This document shows, piece by piece, positions 43,546-52,425 of a stretch of DNA of 64,000 nt. Numbering within the stretch: the first letter of the stretch is position 1; every line of letters begins with the position of its first letter. Made by a program: the position numbers and the translations under genes. Under the pieces are notes generated by a model. It was not told the origin of the DNA and ran no database searches. It was given only the letters and a program-made list of their open reading frames with translations. The DNA lies in assembly GCA_905235855.1 (NCBI GenBank), contig CAJONE010000001.1, forward strand, positions 62,001 to 126,000, written 5' to 3'. The stretch is from an uncultured Bacteroidales bacterium. Its GTDB lineage: Bacteria > Bacteroidota > Bacteroidia > Bacteroidales > P3.

Positions 43546-44364
43546 TTAAGAACGAATATGTTTGGCTATATGTTCGAATTGGGTATGTGAAAGCTGTTCG
43601 GCGCGTTTGTCCAAAAGTGCGTCCGGGATATTAGGGTCATAATTCAGATCCATAGCCTTAAGTGCGTTGCGAAGAGTCTTGCGACGTTGATTAAAGCCCG
43701 CTTTCACTATTTTTTTGAACAGGTCTTCATCGCAGTCGACGGTTGTGCGGCCATTACGTCGCAAACGAATCACCGCCGATTTCACTTTGGGGGGTGGGTT
43801 GAAAACCGTTTCTGGCACAGTGAAAAGGTACTCCATATCGTAATATGCAGAAAGCAGAACGCTTAGGATGCCGTAAGATTTATTGCCTGGTGGCGACACA
43901 ATCCGCTCTGCCACCTCTTTCTGAAACATACCAACCAATTCGGGCACAACGTTGTGGTTGTCGTATACCTTAAACAGAATCTGCGATGAAATGTTGTACG
44001 GGAAGTTTCCTATGATAGCGAATGGTGCATCAAAAATTTTCGTCAAATCCAGTTTCAGAAAGTCACCTTCCACAAGTTGTAGGGTGGGGTAGTGGTTGTG
44101 CAGGTAAGCCACCGATTCGCTGTCAATTTCTACGCATTTCAGATTAATTAGTTTGTCATTTACCATATATTTTGAAAGTATTCCCATGCCAGGTCCGATT
44201 TCCAGCACGTTGCGTACTTCTTGTTCACCACACGTTGTTAAACTATCCACTATTCTGCGTGCGATGCTTTCATCGGTCAGGAAGTGTTGGCCGAGCGATT
44301 TCTTAGCAGTAACATCGCCTGCTCTTTTGCGCTGTGGTTTGCTATATCTGTTCGAGTGTTTCAT
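43546..44364 (-). CDS. rsmA: 16S rRNA adenine dimethyltransferase
   Basis: [50 protein letters not shown]. Start at 44364 rather than ORF 44460. Confidence 0.94.
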
Positions 44365-44905
44365 CAGCTTCTCTGTACTTTCGTCCACAGGTGCATACCA
44401 AAGAATTATCAAGCCGTTTGCCACATTCGCACACCCAGCCAATCTGTCGTGCCGGTACACCGGCCATCAGCGCATAGTCTCTTACATTCTTAGTCACCAC
44501 TGCACCTGCGGCAACCATTGCGCTTTTGCCCACAGTGTGTCCGCATACCACCGTACAGTTTGCACCCAGCGAGGCTCCCTCTTTGATCAGTGTTTTGGTG
44601 TATACGCCATGGACAGGGAAGTGCGCTCTTGGTGTTGTGACGTTTGTGAATACGCACGATGGTCCGCAGAACACGTTGTCCTCGATCTCCACCCCTTCAT
44701 ATACCGATACGTTGTTTTGTATTCTCACACCGTTGCCAATTTTCACATTGTTGCCTATGTTCACATTCTGTCCCATAGAGCAGTTCTTGCCTATTGTGGC
44801 TCCTTTCTGAATATGGCAAAAATGCCATATCTTGGTACCTTTGCCTATGGCCACTCCTTCGTCAATATAGCTTGACTCGTGTACAAAAAACTCCTTATTG
44901 TCCAT
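44342..44905 (-). CDS. WbpD/WlbB-like left-handed beta-helix N-acetyltransferase
   Basis: [51 protein letters not shown]...[18 protein letters not shown] hexapeptide repeats. Confidence 0.88.
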
Positions 44906-44910
44906 AATGG

Positions 44911-47832
44911 TTATTTTTTTAACATACTGTACATTATCTCTATTGGGTGAACGGCATTGACTCCAGTCCCGTCGTGAATCTGTTGACGGCACGAAGTACC
45001 GGGAGCAGCAACAAACATGGGTATGGCCTTATTATTTTCGGCTATAGCTTTTCGTATTGTCGGAAAGAGTATCATCTCGCCTATGGCAAGAGATATTTTA
45101 TAGTGCTCTTTCTCATAACCGAACGAACCGGCCATACCGCAGCAGCCGCTGGCTATGCAGTGTAGGACCGCACCTCTCAGCAATGTAAACATCTCAACGG
45201 TTTTTTCTATGCCAACCAGTGCTTTTTGATGGCAATGTCCGTGAAGCCATATCTCTATTGAAGTGTCATTGAAGTCTTCTGGCGTGATATTGCCGAGATG
45301 CAACTCTCTCACAAGAAACTCGTCGAACAGCAAGGCGTTTTTGCCAAGCCTTTTGGCTTTATCTCGTAGGGTTTCGGGCACGAGGTCGGGATATTCGTCG
45401 CGAAAGCTCAAAATGCACGAAGGCTCTATACCCACCAGAGGTGATGATTCACTTACGAGGTTGGAAAGCATTTCCACATTGCGTGTGGCGTATTTTTTGG
45501 CCAATTTCAGACAGCCCTTTGATATTGCAGCTCGTCCGCTCTCCACATGTTGCGGCATTACAACCTTGTAGCCCAGCCGTGTAAGCAATTTGGCAAAGGT
45601 GACGCCAAGATTCGCTTCCATATAGTTTGTAAACTCGTCGGCAAACAGATAGACTTTTTTTGTGCCTGTATTCTCTGCCGTGAAATATTTGTTATCCAGC
45701 AATGTCCGCATGGTTTTCTTGTTCAATGTCGGAATGCTGCGTTCGGGGGCGAATTTTACTATCTGTTTAATAAGCGAGGAGGAAAGGCTCCAACTTGCCA
45801 TCAAGTTGTATAGTGGTGCTACGGTGTGACCAAGTTGCTGTACGGTAGCCATCCGTGCCACCATCCATGTGCGGAGCGGTGTGCCATGTGTGTCGTAATG
45901 GAGTTGCAGCAGTTCGGACCTAAGGCGTGTCATATCCACGTTCGATGGGCACTCGCTTTGACATCCCTTACAAGCAAGGCAACTGTGGAGTACTTCCAGT
46001 AGTTCTGGTGCAGAAAGAGATAATCCATTGATACCATGTGTCAAGGTTTCACGAATTATATTTGCTCTTGCCCGTGTACTCATTATCTCGTCGTGAGACA
46101 CTTTGTACGCCGGACAGAGCGTCCCCCCCATAAGTGTGCTCTTGCGGCAGTCGCCAGCTCCGTTACACTGTTCGATAGAACAAGTGAGCGCGTTACAGTT
46201 GTTGAATTTTTTGTAGGTTGGTAAACCATTCCCTGATTGGGCATTTTCATTGAATATTGCTTTCCAGTTATAGTAGGTCTTATCGTTTTTTAGGATATTC
46301 TCCACAAGATACCGTTGGCCTATTTCGTATCGCAGGCATGTGTCCATCAGGGGTGTATCGACAATTTTGCCTCGGTTGAAAACCCCGTCGGGATCCCAGC
46401 ATTGCTTAAGCTGACGCATAAGCTCATAGCATTCAGTGCCATAGACCAGTGGGATGTACTCACCGCGCAGGCGTCCGTCACCATGTTCTCCGCTGAGGCT
46501 ACCATGATGTTTTTTGACCAGTTTGGCCATTTCGTATGCCACAGTGCGGAATAGTTCTCTGTCGTGCTGGGTTTTTAGGTTGAGCACGGGGCGCAAGTGG
46601 AGTTCGCCAGTTCCTATATGTCCATAATATACACAGCTTAGATTCAGTCTATTGAGCATTGTACGGACATCGTCCATAAAAGCCAGCAGTTTTTCCGGCG
46701 ATATGGCGGTGTCTTCGATAACGCCGATTGGTTTTGCATCGCCTCTCATGCTGCTCAACACGCCGAGGCCGGCTTTTCGCAGTGCCCAAACTCGTTGTAT
46801 GTCTTCGCCATAGACTTGTGTAGTGCAATACGCAAGCTTGCTTTCCATAATCTCTTTCTCAAAAGCTGCTGCACATTCTTCCGTTTTGTCACCGTTAAAT
46901 TCGGCTACCAGTATTGCTGCCGGTTCTCCGCTGACGAAAAAACGGTTGCGCTCTTGTTCTTTGTTGTGGCGGCAGAGATCCAAGATCTTCCCATCAATCA
47001 ATTCTACGGCCACAGGATTATGCCGTAGGGCAATCAGGTTAGCCTGAAAACTGTTTTCAAATGCGTTGCAGTGTGCGCATACCAGCATTTTCTTGTTCGA
47101 CGGAAGTGGGTCAAGTGAGAGCGTCAGCTCGGTGATGAACGCAAGCGTCCCTTCCGAGCCAGCCAAAAGTTTGCATATATCTATTCTTTCGTCAAGAATT
47201 GTCTCGTCAATGGCATAGCCGCAACTTCTTCTACGTATTGAGCGGTCGGGGTAGTTGGCAATTATATTCTTGCGAATTTTATCGTCTGTTTGCCAATGTT
47301 TTAGTTGGCCGTAAACTTTATTCCATAGTTTGCTGCCCTCTTGTTTGGTAGTGTCAAATTCACTTCCATCGGAGAGAATGCCTTTCACTGCTCTAACGTG
47401 GTCGCGGGTGCTGCCATAGACCAAAGAGTGTGAGCCACAGGAGTTGTTCCCAAACATTCCTCCGATGCAGCATCGGTTGCTTGTCGAGGTTTCAGGGCTG
47501 AAAAAGAGGCCGTAAGGTTTCAGGGCAAGGTTCAATTCGTCGCGAACCACGCCAGGCTGCACTCTTACCCATCGTTCGTCGGCGTTGATTTCAAGTATTT
47601 TAGTAAAACGTTTGCTAATATCAACCACTATACCGTTTCCGACCACCTGTCCTGCTATTGAGGTTCCGGCTGCGCGAGGTATTAGGAAAGATTGTTTTTC
47701 ACGAGCAATTTGCAGCAGTACTTTGACATCGTTAGTTGTTTCAGGGTATGCTACAGCCATTGGCAGTTCGCGGTAAACGCTAGCATCGGTGGCGTAGGCA
47801 ATACGGTGCAGGTTGTCGGTGAAAAATTGCAT
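44911..47832 (-). CDS. Fused FAD-linked oxidase and Fe-S/CCG-domain dehydrogenase (YdiJ/D-lactate or D-2-hydroxyglutarate dehydrogenase-like)
   Basis: FAD_binding_4 motifs ([33 protein letters not shown]), [13 protein letters not shown], Fe-[16 protein letters not shown] motif [15 protein letters not shown]. Confidence 0.88.
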
Positions 47833-49053
47833 TTACTTGATACTTTGGATGAATTGGTTAGCGAGAGTGGAGTACTTTAGATGTTCGACAGCATAATTAT
47901 ATCCCTTACGTCCCATTTCGGCTCGTTCAGATTCTGATAGGTTTGCAATTTTAAGTATTGCTTTTGTTGCTTGGTTAGGGTTTTCCGCCTCTACACGTAA
48001 TCCGCATCCCACGCGCTCCACCACGCTGTCTGGTTCATCCACCGACATGACTATGGGTTTGCAGGCGAGCATGTAGTCAGTCATTTTATTGAACGACGTG
48101 CCGTACTGGTGTAGTACAGAGTGAACGCCTCCCATGTAACAGATGTCGAACTGTTCTACAACTTTTGGTATCAGAACTTTTGATACAGCTGGAAGAAAAA
48201 ATGCATTCGTGAGCCCTTTGTTTTGAACTGTTGTCTGCAATTGTTTTTTTTGAATGCCCTGACCAACAAAGACGAATGCGATTTTCTCCGTTTGAAGTTT
48301 TGTTGCACAGTCAATCAAAACATTCAGCGCGGTCGATGCTGTGTGTCCTCCCGTAAAACCCACAATTGTTTTGTATTTGGTTTTAAGCATGTTGAAGATG
48401 CGTGTGTGTATATCAGGAAGTTTATTGTTGACGTTGTTTGTCCATTCATCTTCGACAAAGCCATTTGGAACGCATACGAATCGGTCAGCCGACAAGCCGT
48501 GGCGTTGCATGTGTGGAAATGCTTTATCGAGCAGGGAAACCACTTTGTCGGCATGTTTATATGCGTAATTTTCGGCGTACTGCATAATTTTGATGAAAGG
48601 GTGTTTTTCAGAATATCCACCTATCACCATAGGCGATAGCGGCCATAGGTCGTGCACCTCATAGACCAGCTTGCCCTCAAAATGTTTTGCATATTTTCTG
48701 GCGGGGTATATGTCAAGAGGATAAGTGGATGAAGCTATTACCACATCCGGGGTAAAAGCGCCGAGATATTTTCTCCCGTGCATCAGAATTTTTAGTGCAA
48801 ACTGAAACATTGAAAGGGCACGCATTATCCCATTACTTTTGTATCTCAGGGTTTTCACCCAATAATAAGTGATTCCATCAATTTGCTCTACTCCCAATTT
48901 TAAGGGCTGAATTTTGCGCAAATGAGAGAAGCTGCCGCCGATAATCCTTACGTTATGGCCTTGTTTTATCCATTCTTTAGCAAGGTAGTATGGCCGGAAC
49001 TCCATGCCGTAGTCGGGTGAGCCGGCATAGTGGTTAAGTATCAGAATGTTCAT
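47833..49053 (-). CDS. Glycosyltransferase (GT4-like)
   Basis: HYAGSPDYGMEFRPYYLAKEWIKQGHNVRIIGGS; VGFTGGHTASTALNVLID. Confidence 0.87.
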   Translation of the reverse strand: MNILILNHYAGSPDYGMEFRPYYLAKEWIKQGHNVRIIGGSFSHLRKIQPLKLGVEQIDGITYYWVKTLRYKSNGIMRALSMFQFALKILMHGRKYLGAFTPDVVIASSTYPLDIYPARKYAKHFEGKLVYEVHDLWPLSPMVIGGYSEKHPFIKIMQYAENYAYKHADKVVSLLDKAFPHMQRHGLSADRFVCVPNGFVEDEWTNNVNNKLPDIHTRIFNMLKTKYKTIVGFTGGHTASTALNVLIDCATKLQTEKIAFVFVGQGIQKKQLQTTVQNKGLTNAFFLPAVSKVLIPKVVEQFDICYMGGVHSVLHQYGTSFNKMTDYMLACKPIVMSVDEPDSVVERVGCGLRVEAENPNQATKAILKIANLSESERAEMGRKGYNYAVEHLKYSTLANQFIQSIK

Positions 49054-50168
49054 TCGCCCTCTTTTTTGTTTCTCTCAACTAATGATGAATATATGTTGAA
49101 CAGTATGGTCTCTTGTGTTGGCCATGAATATTTGTTTTTAACGGCTATTCTTCCATTTTGACCCTTTTGTCGTGCAATCTCCTTGTTCTCTATAAAATAA
49201 TTTATTGCGTTTGCAATAGCATTGATGTCATGTGGGTTTATGCATATTCCGCAATCATTTCCTTCAACAATTTCTTTCCACAAGTCAAAATCCGTGGCAA
49301 TAACCGGAATACCAGCCTGCATGTATTCAAAAATTTTCAGAACACCCAATGAACCCTTTTTGTATCCAACGTTGGGCAAATAGTCAAGTAGCGCTAATCC
49401 GACTGATGATTTTTGTATGTATGCGGTACACTCAGAATGAGGTATAACTCCATCGTATTGAACTCTATTCCAGTTAGGCAGGACTTGGAGTTTTTTCATG
49501 TAGCTTAAAGGATCACAAGGTCCGGCAAGTCGGTATGTAACATTTGTTTTTGAAAGTGCGTTGATGATGTTCTCATGCATATACTTCACGCTTATGCCGC
49601 CGGTGAAACACACGCTGTTTCCCCACTCGTGATAGTCATTGGTAGTCTTTATAATAGGGAAATTGGTAATCTGGTAGGTATTGCTGTTGATTGTACGTAA
49701 CCTGTCCACAATGGAGGGGGTTACGCTAACAAGGGCATTGAAGTTTTTCAGTGAATGTCTTTCATAGAACGCATAACATCGTGACACTAATTTAGCCACT
49801 CTTTTGGGTAGCCATTCTTTTGTAAGCAGTTGTTGTGGAACATCTTCATGAGAGTCGAAAATGACAATTTTACCTTTTCTTTTGAGTTTTAGGCCTATTG
49901 GTAATAATTCTGGGTCGTGAAGATGATATATTGTCGCATCGATTTCACGTGCTTTTTTCAGAATGGACCGCTGATAAAACAGTCTCTTGAAACGTCCTTT
50001 TGCTATGTGTACTCCTGCAATATGCACCCCGTCTTTTAAATGGTCTTCGACATTTGGCGCAATAAGCCATACATCATATTTTTTTGCCAGAGAGCAACAT
50101 TCTTTGTAAAAAATCCGCACGTCATAAACTGGATGTACGGACGTGATGTGGCATATTTTTACAGGCAT
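49050..50168 (-). CDS. Glycosyltransferase (GT4-like)
   Basis: KICHITSVHPVYDVRIFYKEC; LGVLKIFEYMQAGIPVIATDF. Start at 50168. Confidence 0.87.
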   Translation of the reverse strand: MPVKICHITSVHPVYDVRIFYKECCSLAKKYDVWLIAPNVEDHLKDGVHIAGVHIAKGRFKRLFYQRSILKKAREIDATIYHLHDPELLPIGLKLKRKGKIVIFDSHEDVPQQLLTKEWLPKRVAKLVSRCYAFYERHSLKNFNALVSVTPSIVDRLRTINSNTYQITNFPIIKTTNDYHEWGNSVCFTGGISVKYMHENIINALSKTNVTYRLAGPCDPLSYMKKLQVLPNWNRVQYDGVIPHSECTAYIQKSSVGLALLDYLPNVGYKKGSLGVLKIFEYMQAGIPVIATDFDLWKEIVEGNDCGICINPHDINAIANAINYFIENKEIARQKGQNGRIAVKNKYSWPTQETILFNIYSSLVERNKKEGE

Positions 50169-51307
50169 TGTGAGCAGAAGTGTGATAGTTGTTCTATTAC
50201 TAAATTTTGGATTTCGATATTCAGTTCGGTGTGTATAGGTAGTGAAAGCACACTGTCGGCACACTGTTTTGCCACCATTAGGTTACTGCCTGCGTGGGAT
50301 ATTGGCTTGAATGCCTCCTGCTCTTGCAGCGGCAGTGGATAGTATATCATACTGGGAATACCATTTTTGGTAAGGTATTCTTTTAGTTTGTCTCGGTGCG
50401 AACTCTTGATTTTCAGTGTATATTGGTGATATACGTGTGTGCTATACGTGGCCTCTACGGGAGTGACAAATAGGCGTTCAGATGGGTCTATCTGTTTGAT
50501 TGCATGTGTATAATACTGTGCTGCGGTATATCTTGCTGCACAGTATTCGTCAAGATGCTTTAATTTAACATCCAGTATTGCGGCTTGCATTGTGTCGAGC
50601 CGGCTGTTGCAACCTATCACCGAATGATGGTATTTAATTTTCTGTCCGTGGTTGGCAATCATTTGTATACGTTCGGACAAGGCATCGTCGTTGGTAAACA
50701 AGGCTCCGCCATCGCCATAGCAGCCAAGGTTTTTAGATGGGAAAAAGGAGGTGCAGCCGATGGTTCCCATTGTGCCTGTTTTGGCTTTGTGTCCGTCTGA
50801 AAAAGTGTACTCTGCACCTATGGCCTGGGCATTGTCTTCTATCACATACAGTCCGTGTTGCTTGGCAATGTCAAGCAAAGGTTCCATGTCGCAGCTTTGT
50901 CCAAACAGATGTACTGGGATTATCGCTTTTGTTTTCGGGGTAATAGCGTTTGCCAGTGCCTCGATGCTGATGTTGAATGTGGTATAGTCAACATCCACCA
51001 TTACTGGGGTCAGGTTTAACAGACCGATCACCTCGGCGGATGCCACGTATGTGAAAGCTGGAACAATTACTTCATCGCCAGACTTCAGATCCAGTGCCAT
51101 AAGAGCAATTTGCAGAGCGTCCGTTCCATTTGCGCATGTTACAACATGGCAACCACCTAAATAATCACTAAGATGTTGTGTGAAATCTTTAACGGCGGGC
51201 CCATTGATAAATGCGCAGCTGTCTATTACGTTTTGAATGCTGGAGTCAATCTCGCTCTTGATTTTAAGATATTGACCATGGAGGTCAACCATTTGAATGG
51301 TATTCAT
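50159..51307 (-). CDS. DegT/DnrJ/EryC1/StrS aminotransferase, WbpE/WlbC-like
   Basis: MVDLHGQYLKIKSEID; DEVIVPAFTYVASAEVIGLLNLTPVMVDVD; TSFFPSKNLGCYGDGGALFTND. Confidence 0.92.
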   Translation of the reverse strand: MNTIQMVDLHGQYLKIKSEIDSSIQNVIDSCAFINGPAVKDFTQHLSDYLGGCHVVTCANGTDALQIALMALDLKSGDEVIVPAFTYVASAEVIGLLNLTPVMVDVDYTTFNISIEALANAITPKTKAIIPVHLFGQSCDMEPLLDIAKQHGLYVIEDNAQAIGAEYTFSDGHKAKTGTMGTIGCTSFFPSKNLGCYGDGGALFTNDDALSERIQMIANHGQKIKYHHSVIGCNSRLDTMQAAILDVKLKHLDEYCAARYTAAQYYTHAIKQIDPSERLFVTPVEATYSTHVYHQYTLKIKSSHRDKLKEYLTKNGIPSMIYYPLPLQEQEAFKPISHAGSNLMVAKQCADSVLSLPIHTELNIEIQNLVIEQLSHFCSQCL

Positions 51308-51326: not shown

Positions 51327-52307
51327 TTAGTATTTCATGTCATCCCATCCGAAAGGGTGTTTGGAGAGAGGCAATTTAGCCAATGGGTGATAATCGCCTT
51401 TAAGTCCGATGGGTGTCGCATTTCGAATGTCGTGCACTATCTGTATGCAAGGTTTGGCCTCGCCGATGCGGAAACCTCGTCCAGCAAGTATCTCCTTGTA
51501 GCTTTTGGTGTGCAGTTCGGTGAAGCCTTGGCTGAACTCGAACTCCTCGCCATTGATGTTGAGTGTGCGGTAGGTGCGTTTTTCCCCTTGCACGGCGTTT
51601 TCGGGGAGGCAATCGGCATTGATGCTCAAGAAGTAGCGAACGCGGGCCTGTCTCAATCCGAGGTATCCTGCCACACGGTCGAAGTCCATCACATGCACTA
51701 TATTTTCCTGCACGGGGCCAAATATCCACTGTAGCATATCGTAGAAATGCACTCCTATGTTGGTGGCCACACCCCCGCTCTTGTGCACATCACCTTTCCA
51801 TGAGGTGTAGTACCAGTTTCCACGTGAAGTGATATAGGTGAGGTCGATGTCATAGACTTTGTCTTTCGGGCCTGCGGCTACTTTGTCTTTCAGTGCCGCG
51901 ATTCGGTCGTGCAGGCGCAGCTGAAGGATGTTGTATGCACGGTGTCCGGTCTCTGTTTCCACTTTTTCAAGTGCATCTATGTTCCAAGGATTCAGCACGA
52001 CGGGTTTTTCGCAAATCACGTCGGCACCGAGGCGTAATCCGTAACGTATAAATGCATCATGTGTGTAGTTAGGGGTACACACAGAAAGCCAGTCGATGTT
52101 TCGTTCGGTACCTTTCACCTTGTTGCAGAATCGGTCGAATAGTTCCTGTTCGGTAAAAAAAGCACATTTTGGGAATGAGCTGTCGAGGCGACCCACGCTG
52201 TCGAATTTGTCGTAGGCCGCGATAAGGTTGTTGCCGGTGTCTGATATGGCCTTGATGTGTCGCGGCGCGATATATCCGGCAGCGCCTATAAGTGCGAAAT
52301 TAAACAT
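51327..52307 (-). CDS. Gfo/Idh/MocA oxidoreductase, WbpB/WlbA-like
   Basis: MFNFALIGAAGYIAPRHIKAISDTGNNLIAAYDKFDSVGRLDSSFP; VICEKPVVLNPWNI. Confidence 0.92.
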   Translation of the reverse strand: MFNFALIGAAGYIAPRHIKAISDTGNNLIAAYDKFDSVGRLDSSFPKCAFFTEQELFDRFCNKVKGTERNIDWLSVCTPNYTHDAFIRYGLRLGADVICEKPVVLNPWNIDALEKVETETGHRAYNILQLRLHDRIAALKDKVAAGPKDKVYDIDLTYITSRGNWYYTSWKGDVHKSGGVATNIGVHFYDMLQWIFGPVQENIVHVMDFDRVAGYLGLRQARVRYFLSINADCLPENAVQGEKRTYRTLNINGEEFEFSQGFTELHTKSYKEILAGRGFRIGEAKPCIQIVHDIRNATPIGLKGDYHPLAKLPLSKHPFGWDDMKY

Positions 52308-52425
52308 TTAAATGATTGTTAGAATTTTTTGATTGTCTGTAAGTTGAATGCCCAATATGGGTGTGGCTGAATGGTTTATAAGTTACAAAAGTAGATAAAA
52401 TATGGAAAGATAATTTGCCGATAGC

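Follow-up and report, generated by a model that had tools for sequence, protein, structure and literature searches.

On the minus strand of the window, by which we mean the whole stretch of 64,000 nucleotides of Bacteroidales DNA analysed here, six tightly packed genes lie in the order WbpB-WbpE-GT1-GT2-oxidase-WbpD. The leading gene (51327-52307) encodes a WbpB-like UDP-GlcNAcA 3-dehydrogenase of 326 aa, which is expected to convert 2-oxoglutarate to D-2-hydroxyglutarate (D-2-HG). It is followed by a WbpE-like DegT/DnrJ/EryC1/StrS aminotransferase (50159-51307, 382 aa; PF01041, 371 bits), by the glycosyltransferases GT1 (49050-50168, 372 aa from the ATG at 50168; PF00534/PF13692) and GT2 (47833-49053, 406 aa; PF13439/PF13692), by the oxidase (44911-47832), and by a WbpD-like hexapeptide N-acetyltransferase (44342-44905, 187 aa; PF00132), with WbpE and WbpD matched at the family level only. 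Read from the DNA, WbpB and WbpE are separated by 19 nt, WbpE and GT1 overlap by 10 nt provided that GT1 starts at ATG 50168, GT1 and GT2 overlap by 4 nt, GT2 and the oxidase abut (0 nt), and a gap of 5 nt precedes WbpD; the junctions of -10, -4, 0 and 5 nt listed in an earlier sequence-only reading of this DNA are thereby reproduced. The 118-nt gap between Wzx and WbpB (52308-52425, minus strand) is the likely transcript start and contains one Bacteroidetes-type -7 motif (TANNTTTG at 52393) with no match to a -33 element. The window holds 48 such motifs in total, and we do not count this weak half-site as evidence for a promoter upstream of WbpB. At the other end of the operon, the gene for the 16S rRNA dimethyltransferase KsgA (43546-44460, minus strand) directly follows and overlaps WbpD, as it also does in the near relatives L119, L141 and L142. 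Because of this overlap, the transcript may extend beyond the limit set in the sequence-only reading and into a housekeeping gene.

The fused oxidase and its active site

The oxidase gene, single-copy in the window's genome, is an open and complete reading frame with an ATG start, and its 973-aa product joins FAD, [4Fe-4S] and CCG portions in one chain. Pfam matches are to FAD_binding_4 (residues 24-160), FAD-oxidase_C (250-490) and Fer4_8/Fer4_17 (about 553-633), and a GlpC-like NCBIfam entry matches the C-terminal half (613-972, 205 bits), so that the full-length fused layout of YdiJ, comprising FAD_binding_4, FAD-oxidase_C, two [4Fe-4S] motifs and the CCG region, is present. YdiJ (NF049975) is also the best-scoring NCBIfam entry, but the score of 596.6 bits lies below the curated equivalog cut-off of 1350, and we therefore do not file the protein as a YdiJ equivalog; the earlier label of a YdiJ-type enzyme holds for the architecture and fails at the curated family boundary. 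In E. coli and P. ananatis, YdiJ is a D-2-HG dehydrogenase of strict specificity (PMC9504171). The present oxidase shares with it the fused full-length architecture and the catalytic and cysteine residues, but differs in its low identity (29% to E. coli YdiJ), in missing the cut-off and in having no association with SerA. It is closer to uncharacterised fused proteins on plasmids (34-36% identity). The oxidases of the plasmid loci L224-L228 (Caballeronia, Limimaricola, Halomontanus, Rhizobium and Tateyamaria) form a separate clade of fused FAD/Fe-S oxidases and adjoin class-V or alanine-glyoxylate aminotransferases, often together with GntR regulators and transporters.

Five residues of the 2-hydroxyacid site, R352, H405, H412, E449 and H450, do not vary among 100 Bacteroidales homologues; they correspond to residues that bind the metal, the C1-carboxylate and the 2-hydroxyl in human D2HGDH (PMC7801405). 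In the Fe-S/CCG half, 11 cysteines are likewise invariant across these homologues and are also present in YdiJ. Together with the domains, these catalytic residues and cysteines mark the protein as a probable D-2-HG dehydrogenase, and from its sequence it probably works like YdiJ despite missing the cut-off. Among the residues considered for the choice of D-2-HG over D-lactate, K367 and R414 match YdiJ, yet they are present in uncharacterised fused proteins as well, and the human K401/N443 pair is not retained; the two residues set the fused family apart from GlcD, but do not separate its fused members from one another. We weighed these residues as a way to prove that D-2-HG is the substrate and rejected them for that purpose, because K367 and R414 occur across the whole fused family. 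Residue counts at the level of the phylum were set aside here, many of those loci having been read in a wrong segment.

WbpB as a probable source of D-2-hydroxyglutarate

The window's WbpB matches both solved WbpB enzymes, those of P. aeruginosa (3oa2, E 7.6e-113, the closest) and T. thermophilus (3o9z, E 7.6e-87), and scores 380 and 295 bits against WbpB entries, with other GFO/IDH/MocA entries reaching at most 41.5 bits. In sequence type it belongs with these two enzymes and not with the WlbA of B. pertussis and C. violaceum, a distinction that has been drawn in the literature between the ping-pong, 2-oxoglutarate-using WbpB of P. aeruginosa and the sequential enzymes of the latter two species (PMC10622841). 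In P. aeruginosa PAO1, WbpB reduces 2-oxoglutarate to D-2-HG and is inhibited by this product, and a strain without the D-2-HG dehydrogenase PA0317 makes less O-antigen (PMC8651671). By analogy, the window's WbpB is expected to make D-2-HG from 2-oxoglutarate. The stereochemistry of the product, named as the weak point of the sequence-only reading, is settled as the D form for the P. aeruginosa enzyme (PMC8651671). The same reading knew of no description of the coupling; the P. aeruginosa case had in fact been published in 2021 (PMC8651671).

The two systems would be alike in that WbpB makes D-2-HG and an FAD dehydrogenase clears it, to the benefit of O-antigen synthesis. They differ in that the published account describes the P. 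aeruginosa enzyme as a partner common to SerA and WbpB and does not present its gene as part of a wbp operon (PMC8651671), whereas the window's wbp operon itself encodes the oxidase, a fused FAD/Fe-S protein from a different subfamily. In the literature searched, 2-hydroxyglutarate combined with "diacetamido" returned nothing and combined with WbpB returned PMC8651671 only, and no repeatedly assembled operon shared by WbpB and a D-2-HG dehydrogenase was found. Hence the principle of pairing WbpB with such an oxidase is not new, but the genetics, a shared operon, looks new.

We consider it likely that the oxidase is a D-2-HG dehydrogenase co-expressed with WbpB that recycles the D-2-HG made by WbpB. 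In this scheme WbpB would oxidise UDP-GlcNAcA at C3, and its bound NAD+ would be regenerated by the reduction of 2-oxoglutarate to D-2-HG, which the oxidase would return to 2-oxoglutarate. Clearance of D-2-HG would lift the inhibition of WbpB and pull the 3-oxidation toward WbpE and WbpD, and electrons would leave the FAD by way of the [4Fe-4S]/CCG half, with menaquinone as the probable acceptor. We infer three of these elements: the substrate of the oxidase, a quinone as its electron acceptor, and the use of 2-oxoglutarate by the window's WbpB. A comparable arrangement is the SerA/D2HGDH coupling of L-serine synthesis (PMC9504171), in which a 2-oxoglutarate-reducing dehydrogenase is likewise driven by a D-2-HG dehydrogenase, but the dehydrogenase partner and the pathway are different ones.

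Recurrent linkage, co-occurrence and the competing explanations

The arrangement recurs beyond the window's genome. Of 121 family genomes, 51 have the oxidase and 94 have WbpB, and 50 of the 51 have both. In 29 of these 50 the coordinates place the two genes no more than about 8 kb apart, whereas chance alone would give about 0.8% in a genome of 2.4 Mb. Within the window's genus we call a WbpB near-type at 77% identity or more. Of the 22 genomes with such a WbpB, 19 have the oxidase, in every case linked; of the 27 whose WbpB is far-type, two have it, and neither of these is linked (p 2e-8 for the contrast). Scanning named genomes that encode WbpB yielded 80 loci, mostly from rumen, horse and other gut metagenome assemblies. 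The oxidase is present in 41 of the 64 decidable loci, a fraction that is valid for near relatives only because the loci were chosen by WbpB similarity. It lies on the strand of WbpB in all 41, downstream in 34 and upstream in seven (six of them within 100 nt). The neighbourhood is thus conserved within a group of gut and rumen Bacteroidales, and the outcome that the sequence-only reading had named as fatal to its proposal, a neighbourhood confined to this one genome, did not come true when the comparison was run. In the phylum sample, no linkage was seen outside the window's own genome.

On the oxidase tree, linkage to WbpB appears in at least three places and in several gene orders: the window's own clade, an adjacent group ordered WbpD-WbpB-(VimA-like)-oxidase, and genome G195 of another family; the linkage label requires eight changes. 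Since the window's clade and the second group adjoin each other on the tree, they may share one origin followed by losses, but the differing gene orders argue for re-assembly of the linkage over a single origin. G195 carries two recent oxidase copies (C1:1752692-1756581 and C1:2426323-2429184), one of which starts 69 nt after WbpB. The same genome also has a second WbpB-like stretch with internal stops.

Co-occurrence extends the pattern to the order. Among 198 Bacteroidales genomes, the oxidase is present in 104 of 120 with WbpB and in 26 of 78 without it (odds ratio 13, p 1e-14, uncorrected for genome size), and the association persists when about one genome is taken per family (odds ratio 15, p 7e-10, also uncorrected for genome size). 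WbpB also occurs alone: in 44 genomes of the family it is present while the oxidase is absent, and nothing else there matches the oxidase at E 1e-3. WbpB sequences with and without an accompanying oxidase show no difference at the positions common to the P. aeruginosa and T. thermophilus enzymes, and we found no sequence differences in WbpB that would explain a need for the oxidase. A substitute D-2-HG enzyme beside WbpB was also sought in the oxidase-less loci; the recurrent neighbours scanned there comprise genes for polysaccharide export, kinases, transferases, ABC proteins and T9SS, with no oxidoreductase among them.

The distribution bears on a reading in which the oxidase is a D-2-HG dehydrogenase of general use, supplied by SerA, PdxB-like enzymes or other housekeeping sources, its position in the wbp operon being incidental. 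E. coli YdiJ serves SerA in this way (PMC9504171), the oxidase is single-copy in the window's genome, two further D-2-hydroxyacid dehydrogenases, which may be alternative sources of D-2-HG, are encoded there, and many Bacteroidota carry the oxidase away from WbpB. We nevertheless regard this reading as unlikely. The genome's SerA, a 306-aa protein encoded next to SerC, is by its length probably a short type III enzyme and would not be expected to make D-2-HG, as the type I and III SerA enzymes so far examined do not reduce 2-oxoglutarate (PMC9504171). Moreover, within the genus the oxidase tracks the type of WbpB and not the genome, and the linkage recurs in varied gene orders, always on the strand of WbpB.

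On a second reading, the true substrate is a different 2-hydroxyacid, such as D-lactate or glycolate, and chance or hitch-hiking has placed the gene in polysaccharide clusters. This view draws on the breadth of the fused family, on the family-wide pocket signature and on the 34-36% identical relatives that adjoin aminotransferases and transporters without a link to D-2-HG. Against it stand the recurrent linkage to WbpB, the co-occurrence with WbpB across families, and the company that the oxidase keeps when WbpB is not its neighbour. In other Bacteroidales, oxidase genes unlinked to WbpB often follow a DUF1338 gene, which we confirmed as HglS (PF07063), the enzyme that converts 2-oxoadipate to D-2-HG, an intermediate of lysine catabolism (PMC7286885). 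All 44 HglS-positive genomes among the 198 have the oxidase, adjacent in 18. In the comparison with about one genome per family, the odds ratio for the oxidase and WbpB is 13 once the HglS genomes are removed. The strongest argument for D-2-HG as the substrate is that two producers of it, unrelated to each other, lead to the same oxidase, and we judge the second reading to be quite improbable. The lysine route (PMC7286885) resembles the present case in that the same oxidase, in other Bacteroidales, adjoins HglS, but differs in that the window's own genome has no HglS. HglS adjoins the oxidase in L006, L012, L015, L017 and L026 in addition to the 18 genomes of the order sample, and the HglS step is O2-dependent. 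Direct oxidation of a sugar hydroxyl, a glycan-modifying step in the manner of DprE1 in place of recycling, is very improbable: DprE1 has the same FAD_binding_4 fold and is matched weakly, and the gene does lie among glycosyltransferases, but the five human D2HGDH residues are invariant in the oxidase and its HglS-linked copies lie outside sugar operons. The earlier proposal that the oxidase re-oxidises 2-hydroxyglutarate is thus well supported by genomic context (linkage, co-occurrence and HglS), from which we infer the substrate.

Surface-sugar synthesis and its possible link to respiration

The Wbp pathway to UDP-GlcNAc(3NAc)A, which leads to a rare sugar of the cell surface, is complete in the window's genome, with WbpB, WbpE and WbpD encoded in the operon and the WbpA step by one UDP-GlcNAc 6-dehydrogenase-like gene outside it. 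In P. gingivalis the sugar that links T9SS cargo depends on the Wbp pathway (PMC7468200). Because the window's genome encodes 44 T9SS tail domains above cut-off, the pathway may supply an anchor sugar for T9SS here as well; alternatively, its product may enter the adjacent wzx-containing O-antigen cluster. The likeness to the Wbp/Vim pathway of P. gingivalis and T. forsythia (PMC7468200, PMC4031482) lies in the occurrence of WbpA, B, E and D in Bacteroidota and in the many T9SS cargo tails, but the wbp genes are scattered in P. gingivalis, and neither paper mentions 2-hydroxyglutarate. No VimA-like gene is found within the 64-kb window. In L130-L135 (genera g2, g161 and g153), a FemAB/VimA-like acyltransferase gene (TIGR03019, weak match) lies beside WbpB, mostly between WbpB and the oxidase, a layout that suggests a Wbp/Vim anchor-sugar operon. 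In the oxidase-less relatives L126 (G278), L127 (G305), L169 and L188, GldM-GldN-GldN directly precede WbpI-WbpB-WbpE-WbpD, a layout that joins T9SS genes physically to the anchor-sugar pathway.

It is plausible, though in our judgement evenly balanced, that gut Bacteroidales have repeatedly built a respiratory D-2-HG dehydrogenase into a surface-sugar operon, for O-antigen or the T9SS anchor, with electrons passing to the menaquinone pool and glycan synthesis dependent on a respiratory acceptor. If this is true, the recycling of D-2-HG can be dedicated to, and inherited with, one biosynthetic pathway, beyond its housekeeping role. The linkage would also provide a genetic handle on the substrates of a broad and mostly uncharacterised family of fused FAD/Fe-S oxidases, and it predicts that the synthesis of O-antigen or of the T9SS anchor sugar in anaerobic Bacteroidota would depend on the electron acceptor.
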